DNA from: Blattamonas nauphoetae | Taxonomy: Eukaryota > Preaxostyla > Oxymonadida | Assembly (NCBI GenBank): GCA_033064195.1 | Contig: JARBJD010000052.1 | Coordinates: 186,001-250,000 of the forward strand | DNA length: 64,000 bases | Direction: 5' to 3' | In this document: positions 3,233-55,676 of the stretch, piece by piece | Layout: each line of letters begins with the position of its first letter | Numbering within the stretch: the first letter of the stretch is position 1 | Position numbers and translations under genes: made by a program | The notes under the pieces: generated by a model | Told to the model about the DNA's origin: nothing | Databases searched by the model: none | The model's input: only the letters and a program-made list of their open reading frames with translations

Positions 3233-3430
3233 TAGTCTGGACAAAACCCGATACTTTGATAAAACCCGATACTGTTTCGGTGTTGATCTAGACACATCAT
3301 TTATTTTTTGGCTTCTTTCTCCCGTTTTACGAAATATGTTGGATTCAAAATAGGTCATAACTGGAGAATACTTGAAAATGAAGTGAATCAAATATATTAC
3401 GTGCAAAATTGATACTTGCCTGCGATAGAT

Positions 3431-3822
3431 TCAGGATTCTTGTTCATCATCATCACGCACCATCTCACGCCGATTGATCCTTCTCCGAGGTTCGGGACAC
3501 GCTCCCTCACTTTCAGATCGGGAGTGGCTTCGACGTCGACGTGGAGTTGGTCGTCCCCTCAGGATACTTGATTGAGAATCGCGAGAATTACGATCGCGAC
3601 GAACTGCAAAATCCGTGATGAGTGTCTGTTTCCGTCCAGGTAATTTTACAGTGTCGTGAAAAGTTGTCAACAGTGATCCGTGATTTGTTACGACCTCATC
3701 GGGAGGTAGAAACGAACTTGGTTTCATGTTGAGGTTGGTTCGAGTGCGAAATTCTTCAAGAAAGGTAATATCAATTTGAGGACAAAATCTTTTCAGATTC
3801 TGCACAGCCGCTTCGAGCGAAA
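3431..3822 (-). pseudogene. C-terminal end of the pogo-type transposase, displaced by hAT insertion
   Basis: This minus-strand frame starts inside the hAT duplication and reads ISLEAAVQNLKRFCPQ, ending in TGA at 3431 with an Arg/Ser-rich tail. The main transposase frame at 7.2-8.5 kb stops with ...CYPISL exactly at the other copy of the 8-bp duplication. The two join in frame across the hAT element, so this is the last roughly 125 residues of the same transposase. Confidence 0.7.
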
Positions 3823-6800
3823 TAAGGAGGAGCAATTGTCCGGACAAGGCAAGGCGCTGTCCGTCCTCGGACAGCGCCTAATTAGGAGGTCACTCCTCAT
3901 AAGTCTCAACAATGGGAACGATCAACTCTTTTCGACGAAAATTGACTATACTGGAAAATTGAATCAAAAATCATGAAGTAAGTGTGAAGTCTTTGTCTTT
4001 CTTTATCATGGTCTCCTCAATTGTCAATGCTTCACTTTTTTTCATCTCACCACCGCACACAAGGCGATCTCGATCATAATCAAGCCATTCACATCTGATG
4101 GATAGATCATTTACACTCCAGTTAAATTGGACTGTTTACATGCTGACACAGCCTCAAACCTTGTCATCCCAGTCGACAAGGATTCAACACCTTCCAAACC
4201 CAGCTTTTAAGCGAAAGATGAAGTGAATTCGCTTCAGATCGCCTGAACGCCTTCCGTTCTGAACCCAAAGATTCAGTTGTATGTTCCAGTTGAACCTGTG
4301 CGTGTGAAAGGAGTTCAATCTCATGTCGGGAAAATGTATCACTCCGAACTGACACTTCTCAAATATTCATCGAACCCAGATTCTGAATTTGCTTTTCTTC
4401 GAGTGAATGAGAATGGCGAGTGCAGACTGACACTTCTGTCAGTCCTCGTCCAGCCGTCATCGCCGTCGTTTGAGTTCATCTCCTCCACTCCTTCCATAAC
4501 ATCAGTCAATGTAGAATCAGATGGATGCAGCTGGTCGAATGGCCTTCATCGTCTGATAAACACCACGGCTGTCATAGTGTGCACGTTTTCCAACCCTGAC
4601 CGAAATCTTGGAACAACAGATCGATCGCCTCCATCGTCTGGTCTTCAACTTGTTGTTCAACGACGAAACAGGCACCTTTCAGTTCAACACAACTCTGAAA
4701 GTACTCCATCACATCGTTCACTGTGGATCCACTGAAGATCAAACCTTGACTCCGATGCAATCAGCATCACTCTGTGGAATGTCATCAATCACTTCGCCAC
4801 ATACTCTGTACGACGTCCTTCGACTGATCCAGAACATACATCATCCTTTCTCTCCACGTCCGAGAGGGAGCATGAACATGGGGTCATTGACGATGTCATG
4901 TTTGCCGGAGTTGTGGAGATCATGGAAGAACCACCTCGTGTCACAGCATTGAGCGTGTGATGCACTTCGGACAAAGCGTTCATCACGTTGGAAGGCATCC
5001 ACTTTCCGCCGACATTCAATTTCAGGTTCTTCTCGGACTGTCTTGATATCATGCCCTCGCCAAGTCTCAAGAGCAACATCGATGCAACGGTGTACAATTT
5101 CCGTGCATCATCGTCAAGTTCAACCAAAGCTTTCTCGATTGTTCCAGCTCAACAAGCCATCTCTTATGCCGATGCCATGGAAACTGTTGCATTTGATTGT
5201 CGTTTCGATTTTGAAGCAGATCATGTTAACGCCAGCCGTGGAGTGGTGTACTTTCCAAACGCAGCTGCCATCACGTCTGTCTCCCTCGTCGCCACACCAA
5301 GTCCGACTTCGTTCTGGTTGAAGGTCGTGGGAGAGAATTTCGAAGCCGGCGATCGGTTTCGGATGTCGATTGTGGAGTCTGCGGAATCAAACGCTGCGTT
5401 TGTGTTCGAAGTGATTGTTGAGATGAGTGGGAGTGAAGATGGTCAGTCGGCGCCGTTCGAGGTTGGTCGGCCGTCCACTCTCGCATTCGGGAGGAACTAC
5501 TCCGTCGCCAACCACACTCTCGTCTCGCAGGAAGAGTTTCTGGTTCTGACATCGGAGACATTCACGACACCGTCCAAGCCAGCGCAGATGGAGATTTTTG
5601 TGGATGGGAAGACGGGAGTGGATGGAGCTGGGTGTGGAGGAGTGAGTGCTCCGTGTCGGACACTGGACAAGGCATTATCACACGTCGAGTCGACTGTGAT
5701 CGAAACAGTGAAAGTGTCAGTGGCGAACGTAGTGACGCTCTCGACCTCTCACATCCTCCCTGCTGACATTGTAATGGTTGTGGATCAGAATGGAGAAACT
5801 GGTTCGATTTGGGTTCCATCCGACGCGTCGACAGCCTCTCCTCTTCCAACCACATCGAACTCGGAGTCAGTGGACGAAATGGGAGTGTGTGAATGGGAGA
5901 CGGGGCTTGTGAAAGTGTCGGGAGAGTCGATTGTGGTGATCGGGAGCAACTTGTCTCGGATCCATCAGGGAGTGTTCTTCATGGCGAACTCGACACTGAC
6001 ACTGCTAAACTCGCATCTGCTGTCAAACTGGGCTGGACTGGACAAGTTCCCATCACTCGAACGAAACGTGCGATGTGTGAAGGAAGGACGGATTGATGTT
6101 GTGTCAGACGAGGATGCGAACAAACAAGCGTCTCTGCGCTGGATCTCGTCGGATGGGTGTTCTGTGGTGATTGGGAAGGAAGAGTCGAAGTCGCCGTTTG
6201 TGATGCCAACATTAAATGTGAGGTCGAGTGGGGAGAGCAGAAGAGGATTGGTGATGCTGTGAAAGTGAGGATTGTTGGGGAGCAGCTGATTCCGTGTGCT
6301 CACGTTGAAACGTGCACTGACACTTTGATTGTTCTGAATGTGACGTTGGACGAGATTTCGCTGGAAGCGTCGAATGAGTGGGAAGGGCGTCTTATATTCG
6401 GGTCATCTTTGGTGACAGAGTCATTCGTTGTGAAGCAGAGTGTTCGGGAAGTGCGAAGTTAGAACGCGAAGAAAGCAATGTCGTGGGCGATTCCTGTTGT
6501 GGTTGCAGTTGTTGCCCTCTTGATCGTCATCATCGTCATCATTGTGATTGTGTGGCGTCGTCGGCAGAACAAGAAAGAGGAAGGGCAAGAAATGGCTGAC
6601 GCCGATCGCGTTGAGATGGACAAGAAAATGGTGGTGGCAGTGACGATCCGCCGTACTATCCCCGCCCACTGTCCGTCATTCATCTTGAACTCGACATCAC
6701 CCGCTCCACCATTTGAATGTAACCGATTCATGTTTTTAATTTCCATTTCACAATTGTCTCTTTGCATATTCACTCTCTCACAACAGAAACGAACAACGAA

Positions 6801-7234
6801 CCTCGTTGATGAAATACCAAGAGCAAGACCAAAGGTATAAACCAGGACAAAAATGAGCGGGTGAGATGTGTTTGGGTCAGATCGTCCGAAGTCCGGGACA
6901 GGACAAATTTGTCCGTTTTCATCTGATCACATCTTGATGGTGAAGCAATTCATTCATTTCGTTTTTTCAAAAAAGGAGAGAATGTCCATGATCGGACACG
7001 TTTGGACATTTCAGCAATTAATGGGTCATTTTGTCCGAATTCTCTATGAGTGTTTCTCATCGCGATTTTTAGACAAATAATGAACAAGAAATAGATTTGA
7101 AATGTGATCATGACAGAATAGATGAGTTTTCACAGCTTCTCATAGCAATCACCGCACCTCTTTTTTAACTTGGACGTGGCCTCCGTCCGATGTCCGAGGA
7201 CAACAAGGTTTTGTCCGTCCGTTGCTCATCCTTA
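3823..7234 (+). mobile_element. Non-autonomous hAT-type element carrying surface-gene cargo
   Basis: The left end is TAAGGAGGAGCAA and the right end read inward is TAAGGATGAGCAA, a 13-bp TIR with one mismatch that resembles Ac-like hAT ends. An exact 8-bp duplication GAGCGAAA flanks it (3815-3822 and 7235-7242), the length typical of hAT. Subterminal regions at both ends are rich in GGACA/TGTCC motifs (3838-3880, 6885-6910, 7175-7225), possibly transposase binding sites. No transposase was found inside. The interior holds a decayed piece of a beta-helix surface-protein gene, so this resembles a Pack-type element that has captured host sequence. Confidence 0.82.
4277..6640 (+). pseudogene. Decayed 3' part of a beta-helix surface-protein gene (hAT cargo)
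   Basis: Plus-strand open segments encode pieces of the same surface-protein family as the genes at 1-2.4 and 11.2-18.2 kb. The best segment (4988-6262) has Ig-like stretches such as FWLKVVGENFEAGDRF and the motif GCGGVSAPCRTLDKAL. The frame then shifts near 6.2 kb (to EQKRIGDAVKVRIVGEQL). After an in-frame TAG at 6460 it continues with a membrane anchor, AMSWAIPVVVAVVALL, an Ile/Val-rich helix and an Arg-rich cytoplasmic start WRRRQNKK. Upstream (4277-4990) the frame is broken at least twice more. It has no start or signal peptide, so it is a captured fragment rather than a working gene. It does show what the C-terminus of the family should look like. Confidence 0.7.
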
Positions 7235-8479
7235 GAGCGAAATTGGATAACAGCCACATCGATTAAATGAGGCTAAAATCGAAGAAGATTTAAACGCTTC
7301 TCTCAGAGCGTCAGGAAGTGCCTTCGCGAGATTCGTGCGATATTCGACTATGCTCGACGTCAATGGAGGAACGAATAATCTTTTGAGTTGTTGCTTCAGA
7401 TTCGAGAAAACAAACTGATCACACACCTGAAGAATGTGCGAGGTGTGAGATGGGTAGAGGAGTATGTGGATGTGGTTTTGTTGACAGAGAGAAATGATTT
7501 CCGGATTTCGCCTTGTAAGATGCCCATCCATCAGTAGGAGTGCATTCCGATTGGTCTTGTGGATTTGTTGCCGAAATGCGACGATTTCTGGAATGATGTG
7601 ATTTGACATAATTTCGATGTATGTTTTCGTATTCATCCATCCTGACTCGTTGTATTCGACATGAATGTGCTGTTGTGGACATTTTTCGAATTCTTTTACG
7701 GGAAGCTTGGACGGCCATAGTAAAATGGGATCAAGATGGATTCCAGTGGAATTGACCGTTCCAACGAGTGTCGCATTTTGTACGCGAGAAGCGGAAGGAA
7801 TTGGAGGACATTGTTCGCCAGCAAAGTAAACGACCAGAGAAGAATTGTCCTCTCCGATCCGGAGAGATGATTCGTCCAAGTTGAATATCAAGTCATCGTG
7901 GATGTTTTCCAATCTCACAGTACTCTCCAGCAGTTCGTACCAACCGACAATGTTAGCAAGAGTGGATGCTTTCAATCGGTCTGGGTCTAAATATCCGGGT
8001 TTCATAGAGTCGAGGAGAGAATGACGTTTTAGGAATGCGTTGACATTCCACATACTCAATGACGGGTGATCAGGATTGAATCTAGGACTCTTTGAATAGA
8101 TGATATTCATCTAAAAACGGAAAAAAAGTGAAAAAAATAAGACTTCTTGGAGGATCTCCGCTTTTTTCATCGGTTTTTTCTCAGCGATCTTGGTCAGAAT
8201 TTTATCATACAACTCATTTTCGTCTTGAGTTGTCAATAGTGTCGGTCTTCCATCTTTTCCTGGTGGGCGATTTTCTTTTTCCGCTCTCCTTCCTCTCTTT
8301 AGTGCCGCTTCGCTGCAGACTCCGGCTTGGACGACAGTATCAAGCGTCACGTTCTGTTCTGCGTAAATCTTTAATCCTCTTTCCACGCGAGATGGAAGTG
8401 ATCTGATGTCACTTCCACTCATGAGATGTGAAACATCTCGTGGTGAAAGTGGAGGCGAGATCGGGCTGTCCTTTTCCAT
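7235..8479 (-). CDS. pogo/Tigger-type DDE transposase, N-terminal and catalytic part
   Basis: Exon 1 starts at an ATG (8479) and encodes a DNA-binding helix-turn-helix region (KIYAEQNVTLDTVVQAGV). A 33-bp GT..AG intron (8111-8143) follows, then exon 2 with a DDE_1-type endonuclease: DLIFNLDESS (first Asp), NALLLMDGH (second Asp) and LLYPSHTSHILQVCDQFVF, the hallmark segment that carries the third acidic residue in pogo/Tigger/CENP-B-like enzymes. It lies inside matching TIRs with a TA duplication, so it is the element's own transposase. A TAA provided by the right TIR of the nested hAT element cuts the reading frame after CYPISL; the rest is at 3431-3822. As it stands it is truncated, but the catalytic motifs are present. 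Confidence 0.82.
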
Positions 8480-8702
8480 TGTTGTGGGTCTGATCACATT
8501 TCACTTCATCAACATTCACAATTACCAGTTCTGGTTTTCAAATGATGATCGTTTATTACTCATTCTTCCACTTGAAAACAAAAAGATGAAATGATGAAAA
8601 GTGATTGTGGAGGAAATGTCATCAACAAAAAAATGATGGACACCAGCGGTACCACGGAGGGTATCGGGTTAAATCAAAGTATCGGGTTTTGTCCTGACTA
8701 TA

Positions 8703-9517
8703 CGATGGAAAGGCGAGGAAGACGCTATTTGTGACAATGGCGATCAGTCTGTCGATTATCCATTGATTTTGAGATATTGGCAATGTTTGAGGTTGAATGA
8801 TCGTGAGGAGATTGGGAATGAGATCTGATTGCACCAGAAATAGTCTATCTGTCGGTGATGAGGCGAAGACAATTGATTTGATGAATGACAATGTTGCCGA
8901 AACCACAGATGAATGAGGAAATGACAGGAGAGTGAGAAGGCTCTCAGGAAAGGCAGAAGGTGGTCCGAGAGATGAAGGAACGAAGCTGGAGAGATTTCTA
9001 TTTGAATTGTCCAATTGGTTCCATTCAAATTCGATATTGTTCAGAAACTGGACGGCTTTGTCTTGAAGTGGTTTGTCAAATGGATGTTCAGCTTTCACAA
9101 GGGCAACAAGTGAACACAAAATTGTCGATTTGTCCTCAGAGGAGATTCTTGATTGAGGATCGAAAGTGAGCAAAAGAAGATGATCTGTCATGACATTAGA
9201 ATGTCCATCGGGTGAATGAGATGGATATGCATCAGTGATTGAGTTTAAAAAATCTGATTCCTCTTCCATGGAAAAACATGTGAGGATCACCCCATTGATT
9301 GTCACTTCGGCATAAAGATCATACTTCCCCGGAGTTCTAAAACAGACTTGTTGTTTCCTAATGTCGATACGAGAAAATCATGAGGGGAAAAAGTGAAGTG
9401 TTTGTAAGTTGAACAGAGGAGGCAAACCTTCGAAACAAATTGTTGTGGCTTGATCGATCTCAACAAGAATGTTTGCAGAGCATCCTCAAGTATGATGCGA
9501 TGGATATCCTTCATCAT
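8703..9517 (-). CDS. 5' half of alpha-solenoid gene 1 (host gene, split by transposon)
   Basis: The gene starts at ATG 9517 (MMKDIHRIILEDAL). An intron of about 70 bp (near 9358-9427) separates exon 1 from a second exon encoding KYDLYAEVTINGVILTCF and a helical solenoid region, for example SLVALVKAEHPFDKPLQDKA and SATLSFIKSIVFASSPTD. The latter closely matches SAALSFIGSCLCYCSPTN in the gene at 54.1 kb, so these are paralogues in a family I cannot name. The frame stays open to the TA at 8701-8702, where the pogo element begins; the remaining codons are at 2711-3232. It is transcribed divergently from the membrane-protein gene that starts near 9.6 kb. Confidence 0.65.
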
Positions 9518-9566
9518 TCCACTTTTGTTCTTTTGTCATCTTTTCTATCTCCGATTGATCTCAGAA

Positions 9567-11050
9567 TACCACAAAACTCAACAAAGAATGTGAAACCGTC
9601 CTTGTTCTCATTCTTATCCTTTCATTTCTGTTCCCCATCCCTTTTCTTGTCACTCGAGCGATGAAGGAGGTGAAGAACGGAATCCCTCCGTCCAGTCCCT
9701 TCCCGTGGTTTCTCCCAGACTGCCTCATGAGCGTTCTGATCCTCATTCTCGTCTGGCGATTCTGGGTTCCGCCGAGATCGGAAACATATAAACATTTCAA
9801 AGTGGGCATCATCACTGTCACATTCTCTGTCCTTCTCTTCTTCCTCTTCGAACTATTCGCAAACCACCGTCTCACCAACCAGCTCTCCCTCGCCCAAAAC
9901 ACACCAATCCCACCACGCGCTCGAATTCCACTAAAAACCCTTCTTGCTGCTCAGGGTGTTGTCCTCGCCTTCATTCTACCTGAATTATTCTCATCACAGC
10001 CAGACGCACCCGTCCAGTCACATTCAAATCACAATAAAAAGGAACGCTCTTCGGAAATTGCGTGTGTTCATTTATCCTTGTTCATCTCATCCATCTCCCA
10101 TTTCTTTTCGCAGAATTCATCCGTATTCGTTGGATTTTCATTCCTCTTCCACTTTTTCTCATCCCAATTCTTCTCATTGATATGATGCCGAAGACATACT
10201 TGGCATGGGTTTAGTATGTCGGGTCGAAAAAAAGTATGTCGGGTCGGAAAACTGATGTGTTGTTTTCCTGATTTATGCCTGGTGAAGAAAGAATATTGAT
10301 AAAATAATGATTGAGTGGGATACTATGAATCATTATAACGTTGTTTTCATTTCATGAGATGACTTTTCACAAGGGACTGTCGAGAAAAAACATGGAAAAC
10401 TTTCACTTTTTCTTTGTCAATTTTTTCTCTCTATTGTCAACAAAAAGTGAATTTTCCCTTCAATATACATCCATTTGTGAGATTATAACAATATTCTATT
10501 ACTTGTTCGATCATAGATTTTGAATCGACCTAGAACACAAAACAGTGAAACAATGAGATGAGGATCGTAGTGAATCAGAGACATTTTTCTCAATCATTCA
10601 GCTGCGAAACGATGATAATGTCAACAAAAATGAAGAAAATCACAATAACATCTTGATTTTGAAAATGATATATGAAATAAAGTCGACCCGACATCCTAAA
10701 CCTTCAACCCGATATACTAAACCCAACCCGACGTACTAAACCCAACCCGACATACTAAACCCAAGCCACATACTTCCTCCTCGAACTAGGCCCATACACG
10801 TTGTATGCAGTATACTTCGTCCCCTTCTTCAGCGTCTTCTATCTCATCGGAGCACTCATTGCCGACGGTGTCATCTCGTTAACGTTCTATGTCGCGACTC
10901 TTCATGTATTTGTTCCGGTCCTCGGAGGGGTTGGGTATTTGTTATATGATCTTGTTTTGGAGCCGGTCGAGAAGTCGACAGAAATCAAAGGGTGTCACCA
11001 TCGCACATAGGATTATACCCTGCTTTTATTTCAGTTTTGTGACACGTAAA
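9567..11050 (+). CDS. Multipass membrane protein, exon interrupted by a MITE
   Basis: Hydrophobic plus-strand exons: VLVLILILSFLFPIPFLV upstream of the first ATG (9661), then LMSVLILILVWRFWV, VTFSVLLFFLFELFA, then after an intron ending near 10112, WIFIPLPLFLIPILL, and after the inserted element VYFVPFFSVFYLIGAL and FVPVLGGVGYLLYDLV. That gives about six or seven membrane helices. The hydrophobic run before 9661 lies just after a possible splice acceptor at 9566, so a short first exon may lie upstream, or translation starts at 9661. The 566-bp element (10202-10767) interrupts the frame after MMPKTY; removing it with one copy of the 8-bp duplication restores PKTYFLLELGPY. A last short intron near 11001-11036 probably precedes the stop. 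The family is not identified, and internal intron borders are approximate. Confidence 0.5.
10202..10767. mobile_element. 566-bp MITE with 8-bp target duplication
   Basis: The left end begins GGCATGGGTTTAGTATGTCG and the right end read inward is GGCTTGGGTTTAGTATGTCG. The flanking 8-bp duplication ACATACTT is exact (10194-10201 and 10768-10775). The right end contains about four tandem copies of a roughly 20-bp unit built on ACCCGACATACTAAACCC; the left end has two. There is no coding capacity. An 8-bp duplication with GG-starting ends would suit a Merlin-like or hAT-like family, but I cannot assign it. It sits in an exon of the membrane-protein gene. Confidence 0.82.
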
Positions 11051-11149
11051 TAACAAAAACAGTTCTGAAATGGAGAATGAGATCAACAGTAAGAACAACA
11101 AAAACGAACATCACACTTCTGTGCAGTTGGTAATGAGCGCTTCTTTTGC

Positions 11150-11516
11150 TCATCCAGTCCGAAGGACAACACTCCCGACACTTTCATGGTCTGCCGACAT
11201 TCGCCGCCTGTCTCCCATCAAATGGAATCCCCGACCAACCAACACTCCTCCACTCCACCCCTCCCACTCCACCCACATTCCGACGCACGAACACCCACAC
11301 ACCTCCACTCCCACCAACTCCACTCTCTCCCCCACTCGCCCTCCCACAACCACAAACCCTGCTCCTCCCACACACATCCCCTTCCCTCCTCTTTTTGACG
11401 AAGACCACGCTGAGTCAGTGTTCTCCAATCGGCAGCGGACGAACGAGCTGAGCGAGAGGTCGCACGAGGAGAGAGAATGTCTGGTCGACTTCAGCTCAAC
11501 CAGCACACACCCTCCC
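11150..11516 (-). pseudogene. Displaced 3' end of the giant beta-helix gene
   Basis: The minus-strand frame GGCVLVELKSTRHSLSSC... runs from the MITE edge at 11516 to TGA at 11150. It continues in frame from GGSVGGG at 12272 of the giant surface-protein gene if the intervening MITE and one 8-bp duplication are removed. It keeps the Ser/Cys/Gly pattern of the family at first but turns Gly/Val/Trp-rich and has no membrane anchor, so the true C-terminus may lie beyond or be lost. Confidence 0.5.
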
Positions 11517-12271
11517 AGGGATTCAAATTTGCCAAGAATCGATATCGTGAATCGCTTTGATTTCATTTCACGTATTTTGATGAAAAACTAATTTCTAAAT
11601 CAACTGTGAATGAAAATTAAAGAAATCGATTGACGTTCAGAGAAAACACAAGGACCCGATCATGAAAGCATGAATATCATCGTCAATATGAATCAATCGA
11701 TCAGAAAACCCAAATAACAAATCGATATCTACCTAAAAGCCAGAAATTCTGCATTTCTCGATGGGACAGTGTTGAGATCTACACTAATCTCGACAGCGAA
11801 TCATCGTGCTCTGTGGTCTCTTTGCATGGACATGTTCCATCGTTCTCGCAAGAAAAAGTGATAAATAGTATTACATCTTTTGCTGTATGTTTTTCTTCTC
11901 TCTTTTCATTCTTGATCCTGGTTCCAAACGAACCGAAAAATGTGCGCAGATTTTCACGATGAATACAAGTACCTGAATTGTCAAAGCGAAATGATGGATG
12001 ATTCTAGATGAAAAGATTGAATTTTTCAATTGATAACGCAATTCATTTCACATAGATCGGTTTTCGTCAGAACAACATTTTTGAGAGAACTCTTCACTCA
12101 AGGATCGTTTTGTCAAAAGGACAGGAAAAAGTGAATCTGAAATGAAGAGAAAGAGATGACGTGAAAATCACAACGAGGGAACATTTCTTTGACTATGCTC
12201 CCCCGACTCCCCGACTGGCCAACCCCGACTCCCCGACTCAAAACGTGAGTCGGGGCAAATTTGAATCCCTG
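11517..12271. mobile_element. 755-bp hAT-like MITE in surface-protein gene
   Basis: The ends are perfect inverted repeats beginning CAGGGATTCAAATTTGCC, with the CAGGG start typical of hAT elements. The flanking 8-bp duplication CACCCTCC is exact (11509-11516 and 12272-12279). The interior is AT-rich and non-coding, with a short CCCCGACT repeat at 12190-12255. It interrupts the minus-strand surface-protein gene and supplies the stop codon at 12238. No other explanation is needed for the 700-bp non-coding stretch here. Confidence 0.85.
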
Positions 12272-15200
12272 CACCCTCCTCCCACACTCCCGCCCTCCCA
12301 ACTCACTTCTCCAAACCGCACACGAGTCACACACTCCGAGAACGTGCATTTCGTGATCTTGACTCGCGTCCCACATCCCATCACTCGAATCACACTTCCG
12401 AACGCCACTCCGGAGCAGCGAGTGAAGGCTGTGTTGTGGACCGTCACTGTTCCTTCTGTCCTTCCCCACACCACACACCCTCCACCGAACGACGCCGATG
12501 TGAACGAGCACGACGAGAGGTCGAGTGAGGCACACGTGGACACTTTCACAATCCCTCCCTTCCCAACAAAAGACACGGACTCGCACTCAAGATCGAACAC
12601 TGTCAGCGACGACGAGCCAGCCAGGCAAATCAAAGAATGGCTGATTGGTTCCGATGTCCGAAGAGAACACGACTCCAGAATCAGCACAGACGACGACGTC
12701 AGAATGAAGACGGCTTCGACAGATCGATGGGAGGAGTGCAGCGACACAACCAGAGACGACAGAGTTAGTGATTGCTTGTCCAGTGTGATCATTCCTTCCT
12801 TCTCCTTTCTCTCGCTTCCTTTTGATTCCACAATGAGACACTCCATCTCGCTTCCTTCACTTTCTCCCACAATCTCCATCTCCAACCCTTCCCTTCCCAC
12901 CATCTCACTCTTCCCTCCGATCCTTCCCTTCCCAACCAAAACAACGCGAACATCCTCACTTTGTCCTTTCGCTCGTTCCAGACTCTGCCAGATCGTCTCA
13001 AACGGAGAAGAACGTGTTCCGTCCCCAACATCGCTCCCTCGCCCACTCGACGACACAAACATCTCAAGTCTTTCGGGAGGGACGAGATAGAAGCGCAGAG
13101 AGACGATGATTTCCCACATCGAAGAGAATGTCATGAAGATCTCGTGCGTCTCGTCCGCGAGAGCCTGCGGCAGATCTGTCCATTTTGAGGGTTTCAGAAG
13201 GAGAGACAAGTCGTCACCACAAACGTACAGCTGAGACGGAGTGGTTGTTGTGAATGCCACGTTGCGGACGGAGTAGTCGAGCGAGAGGGGACACTCTTCC
13301 ATGTTCAGGAAGACAGCTGTGCCGCACGTGTCGAATGTCAGAGTGTCCAGTGTGGACGAGGAGACATCTTTCAGAACTGCCGAGATCACTGTCCCGTTCT
13401 CTGTGTCCCCTTTGGCTGTCGTGCGAGTGATGTATTCGAAATTCGAGTTGGCCACTTTCATCGTTGCGCTTGTCTGTCCTCTGATCAACGCATCGTGCAA
13501 GTTGGGCATGTTCGTCGCGTTGAAGTCATCAATTTCGAGAGCGCCTGATGTTTTGGCAAAGACGAGAGGGCAGGGAAGGGATGCTGAACTTGTGAATGTG
13601 CTTTGGGAGACAACCAGCTTTCCAGATGCAATCAGAAGATACGCTGTGTCCGAGTTCCGAGCAGACGAGGACGATGCGGTCGAGATGGCCAGGTTGGTCA
13701 GAGTGAGTGTTGGGGTGGACGAGGTGATGGAGAGGGAGGGTGTGGACACGAGAACGAGAGAGGAACGAGGCAGTTCTTCTTTCGAAGTGATCGTCATTGT
13801 CTGAAGAACAGCAAACTCGGTTTTGATGGTCAGAGCAGAGACAATCTTCACAGACGAGAGCGACGGTGCGTTTTGCTTCAACTGACTCAGAGTCTTGCAG
13901 TTCACGAAGAGATGGCCGCATTGTGTGATGTCGTCGGAGTCGATCGTGTCGTCCACAAACCCTTCCGTTGTTGGAGAATGCAGATATTGGAGGAGAGGCA
14001 TGATAAGGTTTGTGTGAGTGGACGACACGGCAATGGAGTCCTTCAGAGCTTCGTTGACAGGTGATGCAGAATAAGCAGATGGGAAGAGAGTTTTGTCGTT
14101 GAACGACGTGAGATCACCATCCATGTACACATCCTTTCCAAACTTTCCAGATCCACACGAATTGGCATCAGTTCCTGTTCCAAAAGAGGCTCCAGCGATG
14201 TTGAATGTTCCGCTAGTCAATTCTGTCAAGTCGAGCGAGATCGCGCCTCCGTTGCTGGCAGACGAGCATTTCGAGATTGTTGAGCTTTGTGTGGAGATGA
14301 CGAAAGAGCCAGCGACGACGTTCACGTTCAGCGCTCCTCCTCTTCCATTCGATGAACAAGCTGCGAAGCCACACGATGCGATGGTCAGAGTGTGTCCAGA
14401 AGCAGTCAGAGTCGAGTGGACTGCTGCGCCGCTGCTCGTGCTGGCGATGTTGGTGAAGTGTGAGTCTGTCAACTGAACTGTTCCGCCTGTCTGCACAATC
14501 ACACTTTTGGCGAACGACAAAGGAAGAGCTGTTCCATCGATTTTCACTTTCGACAGGGCGAGTGAACCTCCAGTGACAGAGACGAGTGGACACGTCATTC
14601 CACTCACATCCGACAGCACTTCAGAGAGTGTGGTGAACGAGATGGAGAGCGAGTGGGCTTTCACTGCGAAGACAGCCTCGGAGAAGAAGTTAGTCAGCGA
14701 CGAGACATCGACTGTCGTGTCGGCGAGGACGAGTGAGGCAAATGAAGTGTCGACAAGGCTGGTGGCGGAAGAAGCATCAGTCCCAGCTGCGAATTTGATC
14801 GTTGAGCGGGTCACAGACTGGCTGAACGACGATACAGTCACAATCTTCAGAATCGACACAACCTCAGCTGGTGTGTCAGTGGTTGAGATTTTGGTGTTTG
14901 AAGTGAATGAGGAGGAAGTGGAAGTGAAGAGAGTGACTGCGGATTCGACGGTGGCTGTTCTGGGAGCTTTGATTTCAGCGAGTGTCAGAGGAGACGGATC
15001 AATCGGTGATGGATCTGCATTCGACGAGCCAAACGAGATCGGTCCCACACTCAATCTCGACGATGGAGACGTTGATGTGAGTGAAACGAAGGTGGCTGTG
15101 GGAGTGCCTGTGAATTCGCAGTCAGACAGTTTAACCGATCCAACTTCGATGGAGTCTGAGTTGATGTCGAAGACAGCCGAGGCAAAAGAAAGATCAGTCG

Positions 15201-18200
15201 CTTTCAGCTCGTCTGCAACAATCGTTCCTGTCCCAGACACAGCCACCAGCTGATTCGCTTTGATTCGAGTTCCACTTGTGTGCGACTTGAACGTGCATTC
15301 TGTCAGAACCAGATTCCCACTTGTCAGATTCAGAAGTGTTTTCGTCTGCGAGGCCACATTCTGAGTGAACGTGAAATCCATTCTTGTGAACTTCACACTT
15401 CCTGAACAGCTCAGTGAATATCCAGCGTCGAGTTGGATGACGGCTGAGCCAGTGTCTGCATTTGGACGGAACGAGGAAGATTTGACTGTCACGTCGCCCT
15501 TCAGAAGACCAGCACCAACCACAACCACAAAGTGCCCGTTCAATTCTGTGTTTGTCTGCTGATTGGCTGCTCCGCGGATCGACTGGCACGGACTGGCTGC
15601 CTTTCCACAGCCAACTGCATCGTTCGGTTGTGTGGAATCCACAAACACCATCTTCAGCTGGACGAGGTATTCGGGAATGCCGACTTCAGCGATGCCGTAA
15701 TCGCCTCCTCTCGACTCGCATCGGAAGCGAGTGTTGTCTGAAGTGTTGTCCTCCCACTCGATCGCGAATTTGGCTGACGTCAGAACGCGCTTGTCCAGCG
15801 ACAGGTCGGCAGCGGAGATGAACACGTCTTTCGCTTTGGTGGCTTCGTTGGATGTGAAGTGGAGATCGGAGAGGACGAAGTCGGCGGTGTCTGCTTCGAG
15901 GAAGAGATGGATCGCGCCTCCAACTCCACTTCCATCGCTCAGCTTGCAGCTCGTGAATGACGACGACGAGATCGAGACGGAAGACGAGCTCGACACAGAT
16001 GCAGAGATCGCTGGGCCGTTGTCGAGGTTGGAGAGGATGTTGCAGAAGCTCGACTGAGTCACAATGAGCGAGCCACTCACAACACTCATCAATCGACCGT
16101 TCTGCTCACTGCCTGTGCCAACCAGAGCACAGCTGGCGATCTCCACTGTTCCCCCTCCATCCACCTCAACCAGATTCCATCCATCCGAACTCAGCGCTGA
16201 CAGCTGCACGGTCATTTCGGAGAGAGTCGCTGTGCCTGTCGTCACGAAGATCGCAGCGTTGTAAGCTGGCGACGTGAACTCCACTTTCGTTCCCGTGCTG
16301 TCTTCGCGCTGGCCTTGTCCTTCGAATGTGATGTCGCGAGAGGCCACGAAGACATAATTCTCGATGTTGGAGCCCTCTGTCTTGAACTCGCCTTCCTCGA
16401 TGACGATCGTGTATCCTGTTTGGATGAAATGACCAGCGTTGGAGACGGTTCGACACGGATTCCATTCGCTTCCACACATTGGAGAATCAGTGCCAGTCGT
16501 CGAAACAATGAGATTGATGGATCGGAAGGCATGGTCCAGGTTTTGGAGAGATGCTCGTCCAAATCTGATATTTTGAGTGTCACGACTTTGGGTGTCTGTC
16601 ACCACGCCTTCAATTCGTGAGGTGTAATCAGTGTTGAGACCTTGAAAGAAGTCCGGGATGGCTTGGTCATCACTTATCATCTGTTCTAAGATGGTTCCAA
16701 CTTTGGCAAACATGATATGACCACCTGAATTGCCTGTGCCGATTGTTTCATTCACTGGAGAGAATAGACATAATAACGATGAGGTTGGTAAGGTGAAAAA
16801 AAAGAGAGATTTGCCCCAATGGGAGCAGAATCTGAACTCGAGACGAGAAATACAACAAACCTTTCGTGCCAATGAACAAGCAAAACGCGAGTCTGAAATG
16901 ATCAGGCAGAACAGCTGGATTGTCAGCGTTGTTGACGAAGATGCCTCCGCCGAAGGAAGGAGCCGAGCAATCCTGAAAGAGAGAATCCACAATCTGATGA
17001 TTCACTTTGAAATGGATGAACAGCGCCCCTCCTCCTCCATTTGCATGTTGTGCTGTGTTGCTGCTGTCTCCGCTGAATTCGACCTTTTCCGACCATTTCT
17101 CGATGGTGGAAGAACACTTCTCGAACTGCGATGCGAGAACGGTGAGTTTCGTGTTCAATCCGCAGAATATCGCTCCCCCATTCCGTCCTCTGCAGTTTCG
17201 GAACACGCAGCGGTCAGCCTTCACCTCGTCGCCCGAACTGAACACGGCCCCTCCGTCGCCCATCGTTCCCGACGACAGGTCCTCAAAACGACATCTCTCC
17301 AGCGTGAGTGTTCCTGCTGTGATGCAAATCGCGGCGCCAGAACCGCGGTCTGTTTGTGAAATGTCGATGAAGACATCGTTGGTGTACGTCGCACTCGAAG
17401 CGAGTTCGATGCGGTCAGTGTATGCCACCCCGTTTCTGAGATGAAGGAAGGAGGAGTTCAGGACGAGGAGTGACTCTGCGCTGTCGAAGTCGGTCAGGGC
17501 GCCTTGGTAGGGCATTTCGGAGTGCTCAAACGTCGTCGCCACAACAACCACAGACGAGCTTGTATTTCGGCAGTGTTGACGGGAGGGTGTGTTGGAAAGA
17601 AGAGATGTGGTGATATTTCGGAATCGGGAGGACGAGAGGTGGACGGTGGAAGACGGGCCGGACAGCAAGAACGGGGTGTTCAGATCAAGCGATAGGGATT
17701 CGAAATTAAAACCAGAAAGTAATACCCGCGATCCATTTTGCGTAGACGAGATCAGAGGAGCAACAAGAGCTGCGTTGCTGAGGATGTCCATACGGATCGA
17801 CGAAAGTGTCAGCGAGCCCCCATTCGATATGAAGGTTGGGGTCATCGACGGCTTCAGACAAATTGAACAGAGGTGCAGCAAGAGATGGCTGTCGGATGAA
17901 ATCAACGCAATTGGTTGATCACAACGTGGGTGAAAACCAAGATTGTTCGAAACAAAAGTCGAGTTTCGAAGATCGAACATAAAGGAGGATTTGACATCGG
18001 AGATAAGACGAGCAAATAAAGATCCAGACAGTGTGATGATTTGGTCATGCAATTCGACATTGCTTGCGACTATCGAAGAATTGACGTTCAAGCGCCTTGA
18101 CTCGGAAGAAAGACGGTGACGTGGATCAAACAAAGAGTCAAAGGAATTTAGGGAGGAATCCATTGCGAATGCGTTGAGAACGACGAGGAGGAGAACCGTC

Positions 18201-32600: not shown

Positions 32601-32726
32601 TAACCTAGATATTGCAACTCGTTTCTAATTCACCTAACTTTGACTCACTGCTGAGATATTAGGATTATTAAGTTCTTTTCGAATAAAAACGGGTTTATAT
32701 TTAAAAACGGGTTTGTGGAGGGTCTA
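29668..32726. mobile_element. 3.06-kb TIR element with 3-bp TCA duplication
   Basis: The left end reads TAGTGCCTCCACAAACCCGT and the right end read inward is TAGACCCTCCACAAACCCGT; both continue to a second AAACCCGTTTTTATTC motif. The flanking TCA is duplicated (29665-29667 and 32727-32729). The paralogous empty site is present in unit A near 25340-25365 (CTCCACGATCAGG), which confirms the borders. The interior holds a decayed host-like coiled-coil gene and no recognisable transposase. Two further members of this TIR family are at 38635-39278 and 55111-55430. Confidence 0.85.
30117..32236 (-). pseudogene. Decayed intron-bearing coiled-coil gene inside the TIR element
   Basis: Minus-strand segments read HTNIDQLTTERDTLKANLTA, then across a clean GT..AG intron of about 95 bp IDTLSFEVSSLLAQNAELEHLL, then TESDMRKVREYSYALEKGEE, and after a stop TPRKQRSKRNMQPVTEHDVE. 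Upstream pieces (VDTSASSASNADLLRIIDSL) are separated by a frameshift near 31.13 kb, a TAG, and a TGA at 31492-31494. The intron and the coiled-coil pattern show it was once an ordinary host gene. I do not recognise the family. It is captured cargo. Confidence 0.55.
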
Positions 32727-32744
32727 TCAGTTTGAAATAGTGTT

Positions 32745-37500: not shown

Positions 37501-39809
37501 GCATTTCATCGTCCGAAACAATGTCCTCACTCGGACAGAGAAAGGACCAGACAAGAAAGGACGAACCAGACCGAGCACTGTCCTGTTTTCGGAGCCAATC
37601 TCGAAGGGCATCGTTTCTGTCACTTTCTTTGTGCTGACACTTGCCAAGTCAGTTGGTCTGTCTCTTCTCCTTCGTCATTGTCTGCAGAACAAGAGGGATT
37701 CATCTCTTTCGGTTTTCTCGACAGTCGTGTCATGGTTCCACACCTTGGTCTCGTTTTAGGGGAGGATGTGGCAGGTTAGTTAATCCGTTCGATGATCACT
37801 TTCTCTTCTCGCTCTTCATCCAGATTCCATGAGTCTCTCGACGGTAAAGGGACATCTCCACGTTTTCCACAAATCAAAACTGGAAGAAGATTGCCATTCT
37901 TCTGATCCCAAAAACAAGGATCGCTTTGTGATGGAGGTGAACATGGACTCGACTCCACGCACAGTCCAATTCTTCGTGAATGGACAGGCCGGGCAATGCT
38001 ATGTGAGTGGGATTCCAGAATCAGTGAGAATTGGTGTTTGTTATCTCCTCATTTTGTTTCATCACTCGTTCAGTTCTCAGCTGATGTGATGGGAACCTCA
38101 CTGGAAATCACAAGTATCATCCACTCCACCCAAGCGACTCCTGTGACAGACACAATGAAAGAGATCAAATGGACCGACACGAAAGAGTCGCTGAAGGAAA
38201 GGAAGGAAAACAAATCCCAACCGATTCGGAGTGAAGCAGAAGGATCGATGCCTGCTCTCCTCTCCCGAAATCCGGAACACTTCAAGATTGAGGAAAATGT
38301 GATCACTCGGACTGCTTTCGGTTCGAATGGACTCAACGCGCCGTTCAGCACAGTGATGTTGGATGGAGTGGTTGAGAGGAGGATTGTGGCTGTGGCAATC
38401 ACCATCCTCGCTCTTCCTCAAACTGAATGTTTGCTCGTCTCTTTCCCATTCTCTTCAGGTTCGTGTGGAGTTGTCATGGTTGGTTGTCTGCGTGCGAATC
38501 AACCTCTCCCCGAAGACCCGCAAGGACTCGGATGTCACACTGAAAGTCTATCTTTGTTTCTTTCATGGTTTACCCAACTAAATTTGGCTTTTGATTTCGT
38601 TCTCTCTTATTTAGATTCGTTTTCTCTCAGCTCATAGTAGTGTTAGAAACCCGCCCGCGTTCAGAAAGCCGCAACGGGAGTCCAAAAAACCGCAACCGAA
38701 CGATCTTCGTCATAATCACGTTCTTTCACCATTTCTTCACATTGCCCTCTATTTTTCTCACTTTTCCGAATACAATAAAACACAAATAACTGTGAAGTGA
38801 CGAAACCAACACAGATCATTCTCGAGATGGTTCGCTGGCATCATATCCCTCTTCATTCTGGATTTGTTGTCGTGCACATCGTTCTTTGTTGACAGTTGAC
38901 GTGGGCAATGTGTCTTTTTCGTTTCATTGTGTTCTCTTCTTCCTCAGAATCCTTTTCGAACAAATTGATGGAAAACGATCATTTGAGTTGATTGAGTGGT
39001 CCTTTTGAGGAGGGTTCTTTGTCCGGAAACACTTTTTCTTCAGAAGGATCTCATGAATCAGATCCAGTGTTGGATTTGACACATCTTGATTTGAAAACAG
39101 GCCCATTGCCTCCAAGTTCACTTCTCTCTGATGGATTCTTGTTTTTATTTCATCATAAAATGCGCTTTAAGTCAAATAAAAGAGGATATGAGAGAAAGAT
39201 AACACATCATGAAACAAGTGGCGGTTTTATCACGCTGGTTGCGGGTTTATGGACCAGAGCGGGTTTCTAACACCACTATCATTTGGTGGAATGGTCCACC
39301 ATTCGGAGAGTAATGAGAAAACGAAACCATGTCATTCTCCTCTCAAAATTGGAGATCAGGTCGTGTTGGAGGTGGACGCACGCTCTGATCCAGTTTCCTC
39401 TCGCTTCTTTGTGAATGGGAAAGCTGGACAGAACGAGATTTCTGTTTCGTATTCCAGATTGAAGATCGGAGTCTGATCTTTCTATTTCTCTCGTCATCTT
39501 CCTTATTGATATCATCTTCTTCAGTTCTCCCTCGCTGGTCTAGGGACATCAATCCGAATTGACGTCCTCACGGAACTCGACAACCCTCTTGTGAATGTCA
39601 CCGATCTCATTGACATTTCTAAAACCAAACCGAATCTGACCACTCTATCATCGCCAACACGGATGAAAGTGCCAGCTCGAGACCATCCTGATTATCAACC
39701 ATTCTTCGAGAAATTGAAGAGTGGGAAGTCTAAAATAATCATGGAAATTGAAATGAAAGAGAAAGGACTGAATCATGAGGTACTGTTTGACCCGGACATG
39801 CTTGTGTGA
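34530..39809 (+). CDS. Protein kinase with coiled coil and four SPRY-like repeats
   Basis: An intron-rich gene. The kinase domain shows ISEGAFGQVLKVV (glycine loop, first Gly replaced), YAVKVL, HGDLKPENVL (catalytic loop), AFLCDLGGSAP across a roughly 45-bp intron (DLG in place of DFG), FEYNSPERA and SDVWSLGVQAYRM. A coiled coil (KMKDIQLATRANEIKQL) follows. Four related modules come next, each with a core like VVLEVDMDARPRTAVFIING, LVVEINMDSNPRTAQFFVNG, FVMEVNMDSTPRTVQFFVNG and VVLEVDARSDPVSSRFFVNG: SPRY/B30.2-like repeats with conserved intron positions. An in-frame TAG occurs at 35941-35943 in module 1. A 644-bp TIR element interrupts the exon of module 4. The first exon was not found; kinase tail C abuts it. 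Stop TGA at 39809. Inferred role: signalling kinase with substrate-recognition repeats. Confidence 0.65.
38635..39278. mobile_element. 644-bp TIR element in an exon (TCA duplication)
   Basis: The left end reads TAGTAGTGTTAGAAACCCGC and the right end read inward is TAGTGGTGTTAGAAACCCGC. TCA is duplicated (38632-38634 and 39279-39281). Internal copies of the CCGCAAC motif follow each end. It has no coding capacity. Removing it with one TCA gives the exon DSFSLSSFGGMVHHSESNEK, which matches the start of the other modules (DSIALAPRKG, NSIALSSTGE, DSMSLSTVKG). It belongs to the same TIR/TSD family as 29668-32726. Confidence 0.85.
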
Positions 39810-40593: not shown

Positions 40594-42449
40594 GTTACAG
40601 TCGGTCGGACTGTTGAGTAATTTGTGTAAATCTCAATGAAATGATGCAAATAATATATGAGCGTGGAAAAAAATCAAATTTTACTGAATTCAGATTTAGT
40701 TGTTGAGTACACATAAGAAAGGTGAATTTATAGATTTCAAGCCTGATCGCGCATGAAATGGCCTTTCTAAGATCAGCACATTTTTGCACACTTTTTATTG
40801 CAAAACAAGTTCAAAGACAGGGAAAGGATGGAAAACAACAAAAAAAGAGGTCTCTATGTGAAACAATGGACAAAATACATCCATTAAAGAGAAAAATTGA
40901 AAAAACGTGAGATTTCAGAGTTGATCGTGACAACTTCTATGTTTTTATGAAATTGAAAAAAGTTCAGAAATGATGTATTTAGGGATGATAAACGAAGAAA
41001 GATAATTTTTTAGGAGAATTACTGCGTCAGTACGATTTTGTGACGCGAGGATTATTTCATTGAGAACTACACATTTGTAACTCGTCACATCAAACGTGCC
41101 ACTGTAGAATTCTTTGTTTTCACGAAAATGAAAAAAGTGTCAAACCTCCGTCTAAGTCGTGTGTCGGTATTCGATGTTCTTTCAAAAAGATCATTCAGAA
41201 TTTCATAGAACATTTCATACATCGTTGTTTTGCTCATTCATCACCTGTCTTTGTCATCGTGCTCTGAGAGAATGAGGAGAGTACTCAATTGGAAAAAATG
41301 AGACAATATTGGACGATACCGTGTCAACGTATTGTTGACCTATTGTGCTGTGCGCATTCAATGGTCTCATGCAATCAGCTTGCGAAAAACGACGAATCAG
41401 TCGAGGAGGAGAAAAATGGTCTACTTTCGTTGAATCTGAAACTGGAGTGCTAGACACGATAAAAGAGGACTAGATAAGAGATATATCCTGAAATCAAACC
41501 TAAATTGTTGATAGAGAGTCTACAATAGCACATCGTTAGACGATCCAATCAACACACTGATATTCATTAGCAAGGTTGAAATCTCAAGGTATCCCTCTCT
41601 TTGTCAGCTTTCCTGTGTAACTTTCTCAACCTGAGGCCTATATATTGGTGTTATCCCATCCATTAGTTTGAACGGGATTTGAATCACAACTCTTTGTCAA
41701 CTCCTGTTTGACTACGAGGACGATGTCTTTTATCATCCAAATAACAGATTTAGTTTGAGACTTTAAACAATTTACTAATTCGACATACAATTTGAAAGTG
41801 TAGATTCCAAGATTGAGACAAGGAGTGAAATCAAAATTAGTGGATATTGGACAGATTCATCACACTTTAACAAACAATCATTGAAGAACTCTCAATTCGG
41901 ATGATCAGCATTGAATCGAGTCTCAGGAAATCAGATGATTGTGTTGATTGGGTTGTCAAACGATGTGCTATTGTAGACTCTCTATCAACAATTTAGGTTT
42001 GATTTCAGGATATATCTCTTATCTAGTCCTCTTTTATCGTGTCTAGCACTCCAGTTTCAGATTCAACGAAAGTAGACCATTTTTCTCCTCCTCGACTGAT
42101 TCGTCGTTTTTCGCAAGCTGATTGCATGAGACCATTGAATGCGCACAGCACAATAGGTCAACAATACGTTGACACGGTATCGTCCAATATTGTCTCATTT
42201 TTTCCAATTGAGTACTCTCCTCATTCTCTCAGAGCACGATGACAAAGACAGGTGATGAATGAGCAAAACAACGATGTATGAAATGTTCTATGAAATTCTG
42301 AATGATCTTTTTGAAAGAACATCGAATACCGACACACGACTTAGACGGAGGTTTGACACTTTTTTCATTTTCGTGAAAACAAAGAATTCTACAGTGGCAC
42401 GTTTGATGTGACGAGTTACAAATTACTCAACAGTCCGACCGACTGTAAC
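40594..42449. repeat. Long inverted-repeat (foldback) structure
   Basis: The arms are 40594-41555 and 41941-42449, reverse complements at the same coordinate sum throughout the inspected stretches, apart from a 449-bp MITE present only in the left arm; the inner ~15 bp of each arm match imperfectly. The spacer is about 385 bp. The outer ends read GTTACAGTCGGTCGGACTG. A 67-codon frame starting VSSTPVSDSTKVDHF is therefore present twice in opposite orientation (41254-41457 and 42039-42242); nothing suggests it is a gene. No target duplication was found at the outer ends, so it may be a foldback transposon or an inverted local duplication. Confidence 0.85.
40624..41072. mobile_element. 449-bp MITE, copy 1 (4-bp duplication ATTT)
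   Basis: The TIR is GTGTAAATCTCA at the left and GTGTAGTTCTCA read inward at the right. ATTT is duplicated on both sides (40620-40623 and 41073-41076). The opposite arm of the foldback carries the same sequence without the element and with a single ATTT-equivalent (42420-42423), a direct empty site. There is no coding capacity. A second 449-bp copy at 53318-53766 is almost identical; I noticed one base difference. Confidence 0.9.
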
Positions 42450-42660: not shown

Positions 42661-42973
42661 TTTAATACTGCGATTTGAGATATTTCCATTTACGATGTTA
42701 AGTTGTCCTGTCCTCCTCGCTTTTTGTCCTCCCTCCACTTTTTCGTGTCCGATTCTGAAATAGAAGGATAAGTGCTATTTTGTGGCGTTTTCGGTGATAA
42801 CAATGAATTTTAAGGCTGTTTTTGGCTCCTCGTGGTGATAGAAGTGACACTGAATGAATTAGAGGTCAAAACATATATTATGGTTTGATCAGAATCTGAA
42901 TAATCTCAAATTGTCTTATTTGATCAAATTTCATATATGAAATGGAAGCAAACATCTTTTCCAATCCCTCATC

Positions 42974-44140: not shown

Positions 44141-44386
44141 CATCAAAGTGTGCTTGTCATGACATCTATTGTTGACGATTGACTTCGAAGAAGGTTCTAT
44201 AAAAAGGGTACACAACAAACGCAAATCACACTGATGTTTTGAATTATCGGGTTTTGCATTCGGAGATTGTGTTCATAGAACTGTCAATCTCGTGAACATT
44301 TTCGCATCCGGATGAATGGACCTCGAGAGTGAGGCATGAGTTCAGCACCCAGAATGTTTGGCTTCACAGAAATGTTACGATTTCCC

Positions 44387-46070: not shown

Positions 46071-46138
46071 GCCTTGATGAGAATTCCAACGTACACGTTT
46101 AGGAGATGCTTACACTTGAAATAGGTCAGAGACAGACA

Positions 46139-48300: not shown

Positions 48301-48324
48301 AATAAATGCATATCAAGCTGGATT

Positions 48325-50199: not shown

Positions 50200-50282
50200 C
50201 AAAAGTGAGAAAAAGCGCACAAATTAAGAAATAAGAGACAAATATTGAACTACTTAATTTGGTAACTGATCTCACCTCCAAA

Positions 50283-50318
50283 AGGCGAAGGTGAGGTCGA
50301 CAGACCTCACCTTCTGCC
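50283..50318. other. Perfect hairpin between hAT transposase and solenoid gene
   Basis: Two complementary arms around AAGGTGAGGTC / GACCTCACCTT lie between the 5' side of the transposase gene and the TGA of the solenoid gene, with further CTCACCT copies on both sides (50272 and 50330). It could be a terminator-like hairpin or the subterminal palindrome of the hAT element. Confidence 0.4.
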
Positions 50319-50327
50319 TAATTTATC

Positions 50328-53300: not shown

Positions 53301-54143
53301 GACGCATTTGGCGAGATGTGTAAATCTCAATGAAATGATGCAAATAATATATGAGCGTGGAAAAAAATCAAATTTTACTGAATTCAGATTTAGTTGTTGA
53401 GTACACATAAGAAAGGTGAATTTATAGATTTCAAGCCTGATCGCGCATGAAATGGCCTTTCTAAGATCAGCACATTTTTGCACACTTTTTATTGCAAAAC
53501 AAGTTCAAAGACAGGGAAAGGATGGAAAACAACAAAAAAAGAGGTCTCTATGTGAAACAATGGACAAAATACATCCATTAAAGAGAAAAATTGAAAAAAC
53601 GTGAGATTTCAGAGTTGATCGTGACAACTTTTATGTTTTTATGAAATTGAAAAAAGTTCAGAAATGATGTATTTAGGGATGATAAACGAAGAAAGATAAT
53701 TTTTTAGGAGAATTACTGCGTCAGTACGATTTTGTGACGCGAGGATTATTTCATTGAGAACTACACAGATGCTGAAACAATCAACTAATAACGAGGCACA
53801 CGATACGGTTGGGAATGAAATATTGACTGAACGGCTCAGAGAAGCCATCTTCGAACCATCCAACATTCTCGTCTGTTACAATTCCTTCAGATGCTGAAAC
53901 ATGAAAATATGGCTCAAGCAATGATCGAGTGGACGTACCTCGGAGATGATCGAGAAGAAATTGAATTGTATCCTCTTGGAAGAGAGCGAAGGTGTTTCGG
54001 AGAAGGGTCTGTTCCTTGGTCTGACGAGATGAGAATGAAACTGGCCATGCAAACTGTGGGGGAACAAGGAATGATTGATTGATTCCAAGGATTACCTTGA
54101 CGATCAAACATGTCTGAATCTTGAAGTGATTGGATCTAACCAT
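50328..54143 (-). CDS. Large alpha-solenoid protein, exon interrupted by a MITE
   Basis: The start is ATG 54143 (MVRSNHFKIQTCLIVK), then short introns (42-45 bp; donors GTAATCC and GTACGTCC, acceptors CCACAG and TTTCAG) give KFAWPVSFSSRQTKEQ, ASEGIVTDENVGWFEDGFSE and HLAKCVVDCLLILG. The last exon (about 53225-50328) is open for over 960 codons with repeated amphipathic helices, such as LVRKVALFFARLGPSLPPQL and RVAAEAWRLVLQLIRVIADL, plus an acidic loop (EESDGETDDETKSEETEQEP). The pattern suggests a HEAT/ARM-like solenoid; I cannot name it. The 449-bp MITE at 53318-53766 lies a few bases into one exon. The border at 53.25 kb is not fully resolved. Stop TGA. Confidence 0.6.
53318..53766. mobile_element. 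449-bp MITE, copy 2 (4-bp duplication AGAT)
   Basis: Same element as at 40624-41072: identical length, same orientation, same TIR (GTGTAAATCTCA ... TGAGAACTACAC). AGAT is duplicated at 53314-53317 and 53767-53770. It lies inside an exon of the minus-strand solenoid gene, five bases after a 3' splice site. Near-identity of the two copies points to recent movement. Confidence 0.9.
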
Positions 54144-55676
54144 GATTTTTGATTCTTCAAGTCTTAGCTTCAATCTTTCTCAAAATGAAGACATCACTTC
54201 AACTTCTTGTCAGTGGAGCGATCATCTGGGACGTTCCGTCCTCAAAACCCCGGTCATTCAAATCGTCGATAGATCGAACCATATAATTGTTTGGAATCGT
54301 ACCCTTCCCAGGAAAGACCAACAAATGAAAATTATCACATCCAGGAAACTCTCTGTTTCTCGTCATTATCGCAAGAATGTTCCAAAATTATCTCCATTCC
54401 TGAACTGGACTCCAGATTCTGAAATCACTGTAGATTCGGTGGCAGAAGTCTTTCGCTCTCTAGTTTCAATGATCGAGGATGGCTTCCCATTAAATGAAGA
54501 ACTTATCAGCAACGCTTCCCAATTTCTTTCTTCAATCAATCACTCAATCAACTTCGACAAATTGTTACCGGCCATTGGACGATATTCAGTGGACTATGCT
54601 GATGTGATTGTGGAAAAGATAACCATTCTCCTGTCTTTGTCCCATCCATCGATATTCAGTGCGGCTCTCTCCTTCATTGGAAGCTGTCTCTGCTACTGTT
54701 CACCAACAAATTGCATGGGACTTGTCTATTCCAAACTCATTCCCAGAATCCTCTCGATTCCGCACTTGCGAGATCTTTCTGTGCTCGATGATGAGAGTGT
54801 CCTGCACAGCCTCTTCACACTTATCTTCTCATCAGCTGTGCTCTCCTCTCACAAATTTCTGGGCTCGCTCCCAGCCAATTCCCACGTTGACCCTCACTCT
54901 GTCCGAGATGTGTTGTTGCACGATGTATTGATCCCACTTGAACCCTTTCTCGTCCAGATCAGTTGCAATCGTCGTCTTCTTCCGTGGATCCTTGAAAACA
55001 ATGACCTTTACCGATTTTTGGTCAATCTTTTTGATGCGAGTACATTCCACCAATCATCGCTGGATTTTGTTTGTTCTTCTTACATGCCAATGGTCTTCCA
55101 GTCACTTCTCTCAAAACCCGTTTTTATTCGATTACATTCTGATTTTCAACTATAGTGCTAAAAATTTGTTTTCTAATCTCTTAAAAACATGTTTTCAATC
55201 GTTCATTGAGAGAGAGAATTACCATAAATCACTCTAAACAATGACGCAGTTGATGAAGAATGGGGAACAATACTAACTCTCCGCCGCTTCTTGATTGTTA
55301 AAACCAGGCTAGATCATGGTGTTTATGTCCAAAAAGTCAAATTTCAAAAGGTAGCTTAAAATGAAATGATAATAGAGTATATTTCGAATTATTTCGGGTT
55401 TTTACGCAGAAACGGGTTTTTCAGAGCACTCTCAGCAAATTGGAGAACAGGAGAGACGAAATTGAACGCAGATGGAGGATTGTGTTGCAGACACTGGAAC
55501 AGGAAGGGTTTCTCGAAGGACTTGAACAAACACTGCTTCACCACAACTTGTCGAGAACTGGAAGGGGTGTGAGGTTCTATTCATTCTTCCTCATGAACCA
55601 TTCGGGATCAAACTGTTGCAGGCCTATAGGGGGTGTACTAATTATGTCCCCTCAGGTTTTCTACATATACAGTGAG
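54142..55676 (+). CDS. Alpha-solenoid gene 2, paralogue of gene 1, exon interrupted
   Basis: Start ATG 54142 (MIFDSSSLSFNLSQNED). An open helical protein includes SEITVDSVAEVFRSLVSMIE, LSLSHPSIFSAALSFIGSCL and VLLHDVLIPLEPFLVQISCN, aligning by eye with gene 1 (8703-9517 joined to 2711-3232). The frame runs ...VFQSLLS into a 320-bp TIR element. Removing 55111-55430 with one CTC restores QSLLSKLENRRDEIERRWRI, continuing to GFLEGLEQTLLHHN and TGA near 55676. The start codon overlaps that of the divergent gene in the tetranucleotide CATG. Function unknown. Confidence 0.65.
55111..55430. mobile_element. 320-bp MITE of the AAACCCG family (3-bp duplication CTC)
   Basis: The left end begins TCAAAACCCGTTTTTATTCG; the right end read inward is AGTGCTCTGAAAAACCCG. 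CTC is duplicated (55108-55110 and 55431-55433). The left part (AAACCCGTTTTTATTC ... AACTATAGTG) matches the start of the 29668-32726 element beyond its first motif, so the left terminus is shortened. It is non-coding and sits in an exon of alpha-solenoid gene 2. Confidence 0.7.

Follow-up and report, generated by a model that had tools for sequence, protein, structure and literature searches.

Recent landing of DNA transposons mostly accounts for the interrupted reading frames in this stretch of the Blattamonas nauphoetae genome, and a recent burst of several transposon families, in a genome that is dense in coding sequence and has large gene families, is, very probably, their best explanation. 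The window, by which we mean the whole 64,000-nucleotide stretch that was analyzed, corresponds to positions 186,001–250,000 of contig C468 of this oxymonad, and our searches covered the 88.3-Mb, 837-contig genome. The genome report gives 88,537,989 bp, 879 contigs and 25,221 genes, and describes a gene prediction that took RNA-seq intron hints and transcripts as input (PMC10703272). For a relative, Monocercomonoides exilis, the coding share of ten full-length chromosomes is given as 62.6% on average (PMC8767320).

According to our explanation, ordinary DNA transposons of several families would have inserted into genes, most of them very recently, each duplicating its target. As the flanks would have had too little time for decay, taking out an element together with one copy of the target-site duplication (TSD) would bring the old frame back. 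The interrupted gene copies would most likely be truncated or non-functional, and they would be tolerated since paralogs exist, tolerance via redundancy being a step that we infer. The frame restoration thus needs no special explanation, as the deletion simply recreates the earlier allele, and a frame restored in this manner should not be taken as evidence of removal by the cell. The window documents a recent multi-family DNA-transposon burst in an oxymonad and yields a set of defined sites where transposon removal from RNA could be directly tested, with element-free counterparts existing for some of them.

Elements and target sites

The features considered are the following:

3233..8700: E1, pogo/Tc1-mariner-like element; TSD TA; inverted ends; host is a minus-strand gene of a large family
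7232..8110, minus strand: open frame with part of the E1 transposase (DDE_1), a Pfam match
3823..7234: E2, 3.4-kb element; 8-bp TSD GAGCGAAA; inverted ends; nested in the E1 transposase gene
10202..10767: E3, 566-bp element; 8-bp TSD ACATACTT; inverted ends; plus-strand host gene
11516..12271: E4, 756-bp hAT-like element; 8-bp TSD CACCCTCC; inverted ends; in the minus-strand gene BLNAU_8249
12241..17791, minus strand: BLNAU_8249 model (1815 aa), end inside E4
29668..32726: further element, 3.06 kb, TCA-flanked
38635..39278: E5, 644-bp element; TSD TCA; inverted ends; 4 nt downstream of a 3' splice site inferred by eye
40624..41072: second E6 copy; TSD ATTT; located in an arm of the inverted repeat at 40594–42449
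53318..53766: E6, 449-bp element; TSD AGAT; inverted ends; minus-strand host gene
55111..55431: E7, element remnant; left end lost, edges uncertain by a few bases

A first-pass annotation of this DNA had listed seven elements with terminal inverted repeats, each interrupting a coding exon. Inverted ends and matching TSDs are found in E1–E6, while the left end of E7 is gone. As E2 sits in the transposase of E1 rather than in a host gene, six host sites remain. The end and the 8-bp TSD given for E4 were correct, with the start moving from 11517 to 11516, and two TSD-flanked elements (29668–32726 and 40624–41072) come in addition to the earlier list.

The annotation had also held that removing each element with one duplication restores the frame. 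This is borne out for E1, E4 and E6, for which the frame across the emptied site agrees with protein relatives; in the case of E6, which lies 5 nt into an inferred exon, downstream of an inferred 3' splice site, both the splice site and the short exon were read by eye. At E3, the open frames of the two sides join up, and the flanking DNA can be aligned to that of a paralog, albeit with gaps close to the site; the flanks of E2 are open in matching frames. At E5, the reading as exon covers the right flank only. E7 allows two readings, as CTC, which restores the family frame, or as TCA/TCA, the TSD type of its sisters, which also matches by letters and gives a different frame. Of the four E7 sisters examined, three extend about 27 bases further at the left (few of these bases are shared by the fourth), running to CAGTGCTC-type ends that are absent from the window copy, and duplications in three of the four read as TGA, TCA and TTA. 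With its left end lost, the TSD of E7 itself is thus not safely readable.

The view that the flanking exons show little other decay does not hold at E7. When emptied by the CTC reading, its gene has two conserved stretches that are separated by 14 residues, against 34 in all eight relatives (six determined by script and two counted in printed rows), which points to decay, or at least to a 20-residue loss, beside the element.

Age of the insertions

Near-identical sisters elsewhere in the genome were found for five of the seven elements (E1, E2, E3, E5 and E6), in agreement with the earlier suggestion of very recent insertions. E1, the TA duplication of which was confirmed, has at least 18 other full-length places at 99–100% identity (40 of 77 candidates scored), and E2 has at least five others at 100% over its full length and two further ones at 99% over its bases 1–3248 (40 of 294 candidates scored). 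The nearest sister of E3 is 99.5% identical, and the exact 8-bp duplication is present in 10 of the 10 best copies of this family. E5 is found at 100% in at least seven places including itself, one of them over 642 of 644 bases (40 of 98 candidates scored), with TCA, TGA and TAA as the TSDs of the family. For E6, with 40 of 257 candidates scored, the 41 matches listed comprise at least 40 full-length places at a rounded 100%, itself included, and one match that is 80% identical; of 30 copies, 29 have an exact TSD, which takes the form ANNT in 28 of them.

E4 and E7 differ from these. E4 has no close sister (its other matches are partial, at 69–90%) and is therefore dated only by a paralog that lacks the element. 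E7, being decayed and 97–98% identical to its best sisters, is not among the freshest.

Element-free counterparts and the interrupted genes

Recency is also suggested for E4, since a duplicate of its gene lacks the element. This inverted copy lies on the same contig and has CACCCTCC just once at the site, with no element; its identity is 96% over 1429 bases in one flank (12272–13700) and 92% over 383 columns, with a 14-bp gap, in the other. The host gene of E3 has paralogs on contigs C190 and C831, and the C190 paralog, which has no element, can be aligned across the emptied junction at 80%, with gaps close by. The genes at the E1, E6 and E7 sites are members of large gene families, for which only more distant relatives were seen. 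On this contig, no gene model was found within 530–1687 aa for the host of E6, nor within 188–597 aa for that of E7.

The recency of the insertions would also allow them to be heterozygous or polymorphic, with intact alleles present in the same culture, and this possibility, while compatible with a recent burst, we consider rather unlikely. In three flanks that were searched, in an assembly that hides alleles where it is collapsed, other places reached at most 92% (9000–10200), 84% (39279–39800) and 81% (54150–55110) identity. The 96% copy of 12272–13700, being on the same contig, is a paralog.

Among the interrupted host genes, the one for which an annotation was found is that of E4. The published model of BLNAU_8249 runs into E4 and stops there, while its element-free paralog BLNAU_8242, 88% identical, continues past this point (residues 1930–2007 match window positions 11515–11282). 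Judging by this model, which may be ab initio, the predicted BLNAU_8249 protein is truncated by the insertion. The alternative of a plus-strand gene at E4 was dismissed, as the host is the minus-strand BLNAU_8249; a frameshift due to the 14-bp difference between the two gene copies was likewise dismissed, as this difference falls in an intron of BLNAU_8242, read from its protein.

Removal from RNA or DNA

The first-pass annotation had offered, as an alternative to recency, that the cell removes the elements precisely. For splicing, we took each element together with one duplication and examined every register on both strands. None of the elements, with E7 taken in both readings, can form a GT-AG or GC-AG intron on either strand, and precise splicing of the seven was accordingly rejected. 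E3 (plus strand) and E6 (minus strand) offer AT..AC dinucleotides only, without the U12 donor motif. On the gene strand, at least one frame of every element is closed by a stop in the first 150 bases, and in E5 a stop is the first codon in the host's read frame. As the inserts are also present in the assembly and the E4 gene is truncated by its insert, precise removal is left without support, and nothing in our data requires it. That removal is absent is what we infer, whereas the TSDs, sisters, element-free counterparts and truncated gene model were observed as such. If removal did occur, exonic transposons in a protist would make a strong case of host rescue.

Three forms of removal should nonetheless be considered. 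Splicing-competent elements (introners), where the spliceosome takes out the element with one TSD, are described with inverted ends and TSDs within genes (PMC9860276), and the window elements share these features, but their junctions form no precise introns. While AGGT or its complement ACCT, found in 3 of the 29 exact E6 TSDs, would on one strand be compatible with a precise GT-AG intron, the joined flanks of the AGGT copy are open for 99 codons only, and together with the lack of GT-AG or GC-AG borders in all seven elements this makes such removal very improbable.

Animals possess "SOS splicing", in which an element marked by its repeats is excised from the mRNA. By analogy, the protist might recognize paired terminal repeats, without splice-site motifs, and so strip its RNA of exonic DNA transposons belonging to several unrelated families; insertions into exons would then be nearly neutral, and the diverged elements seen in long open frames would represent old survivors. 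The clear inverted ends of six of the seven elements fit such excision, as does the lack of depletion of exonic copies described below, but the annotated E4 gene was read into its element (in a model that may be ab initio), and we regard both this mechanism and its consequence of near-neutral insertions as highly improbable, if slightly less so than introners. A search for CAAP1 (PF15335), a protein with a role in SOS splicing, gave no match; as the control searches gave none either, this absence shows nothing. "SOS splicing" was not met in our non-exhaustive literature searches.

The least probable form, to which we assign almost no weight, is somatic DNA elimination as for the internal eliminated sequences (IESs) of ciliates. 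Paramecium IESs have a TA target and Tc1-like ends, and E1 has both; however, the elements are present in the bulk assembly, and the four TSD classes (TA, TNA, ANNT and 8 bp) would need separate excision. Oxymonads are not known to have two kinds of nuclei.

Occurrence of the copies in open frames

An element copy was counted as lying in a long open frame if a stop-free stretch of at least 150 codons, within 700 bases, ran across the emptied site, which is a crude test as introns break such stretches. By this measure, 10 of 13 E3 copies are in long open frames, as compared to a fraction of 0.594 for positions at the same loci (p = 0.26), and 14 of 20 E5 copies, as compared to 0.481 for TNA positions at the same loci (p = 0.07). 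For E6, the count is 4 of 10, against 0.625 at ANNT positions of the window outside elements, given without a p value; four E6 copies have open frames of more than 200 codons. Block-shuffled window sequence yields 0.051. Of 30 loci in each of the E3 and E5 families, 17 and 10, respectively, were left out of the counts, one as a repeated place and the others for want of two complete ends, the required duplication or 350 bases on each side; the E6 count covers those 10 of 40 listed places that were taken with 350-base flanks.

E3, E5 and E6 copies are thus in open frames about as often as the controls, with no clear excess and no depletion, and targeting of exons was accordingly rejected. As elements, the inserts exceed chance, whereas their presence in exons shows no clear excess. 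Some of these results count against recent insertion: exonic copies show no depletion of the kind expected from selection acting on older insertions, the E5 share is somewhat above its control, and some diverged elements of the E3 and E4 families are in long open frames. For E3, two of three diverged copies are so placed (232 codons at L015 and 175 at L019, with 118 at L018), and for the E4 family 4 of 9 other complete places are, after 8 of 19 loci without a complete element and one repeated place had been left out.

Relation to known transposon classes

E1 resembles pogo/Tc1-mariner elements in its TA duplication, inverted ends and transposase (DDE_1 match, E = 5.3e-14), although this copy differs in having a nested 3.4-kb element in the transposase gene. 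The Pfam search of the window frames gave no match for 14 of 15. E4 shares with hAT elements the 8-bp TSD and the CAGGG-type ends, a hAT motif, but is only 756 bp long with no transposase seen and is presumably non-autonomous. E5 and E7 may be PIF/Harbinger-like, as E5 and the sisters of E7 have a 3-bp TSD, while the targets here are TNA and the usual PIF/Harbinger target is TWA. E6 is short, near-identical between copies and high in copy number, as is a MITE with a 4-bp TSD, and differs in targeting ANNT.

The interior of E2 (query 1050–2823) matches loci on C46, C69, C246 and C701 at 77–95%. It resembles a host gene family, as if a host gene fragment had been captured (Pack-type). That E2 might hold an intronless gene copy seems less likely, as the gaps (121 bp with 17 shared, 73 with 5) have the look of differences in repeat units. 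The interior of the 29668–32726 element also looks like host coding sequence.

Further copies and repeats

The second E6 copy lies in a long inverted repeat (40594–42449) with 489-base arms that are 99% complementary, and the opposite arm holds the empty site. Elsewhere in the genome, the E6 copy at L104/L105 (C265), with the TSD AGGT, could form a precise GT-AG intron if its context is coding; the flanks of that at L122/L142 (C150) match the end of the 29668–32726 element, the window having the empty site near 32691. At 57835–58474, a 79-base stretch is followed downstream by two inverted copies that are 97% complementary to it.
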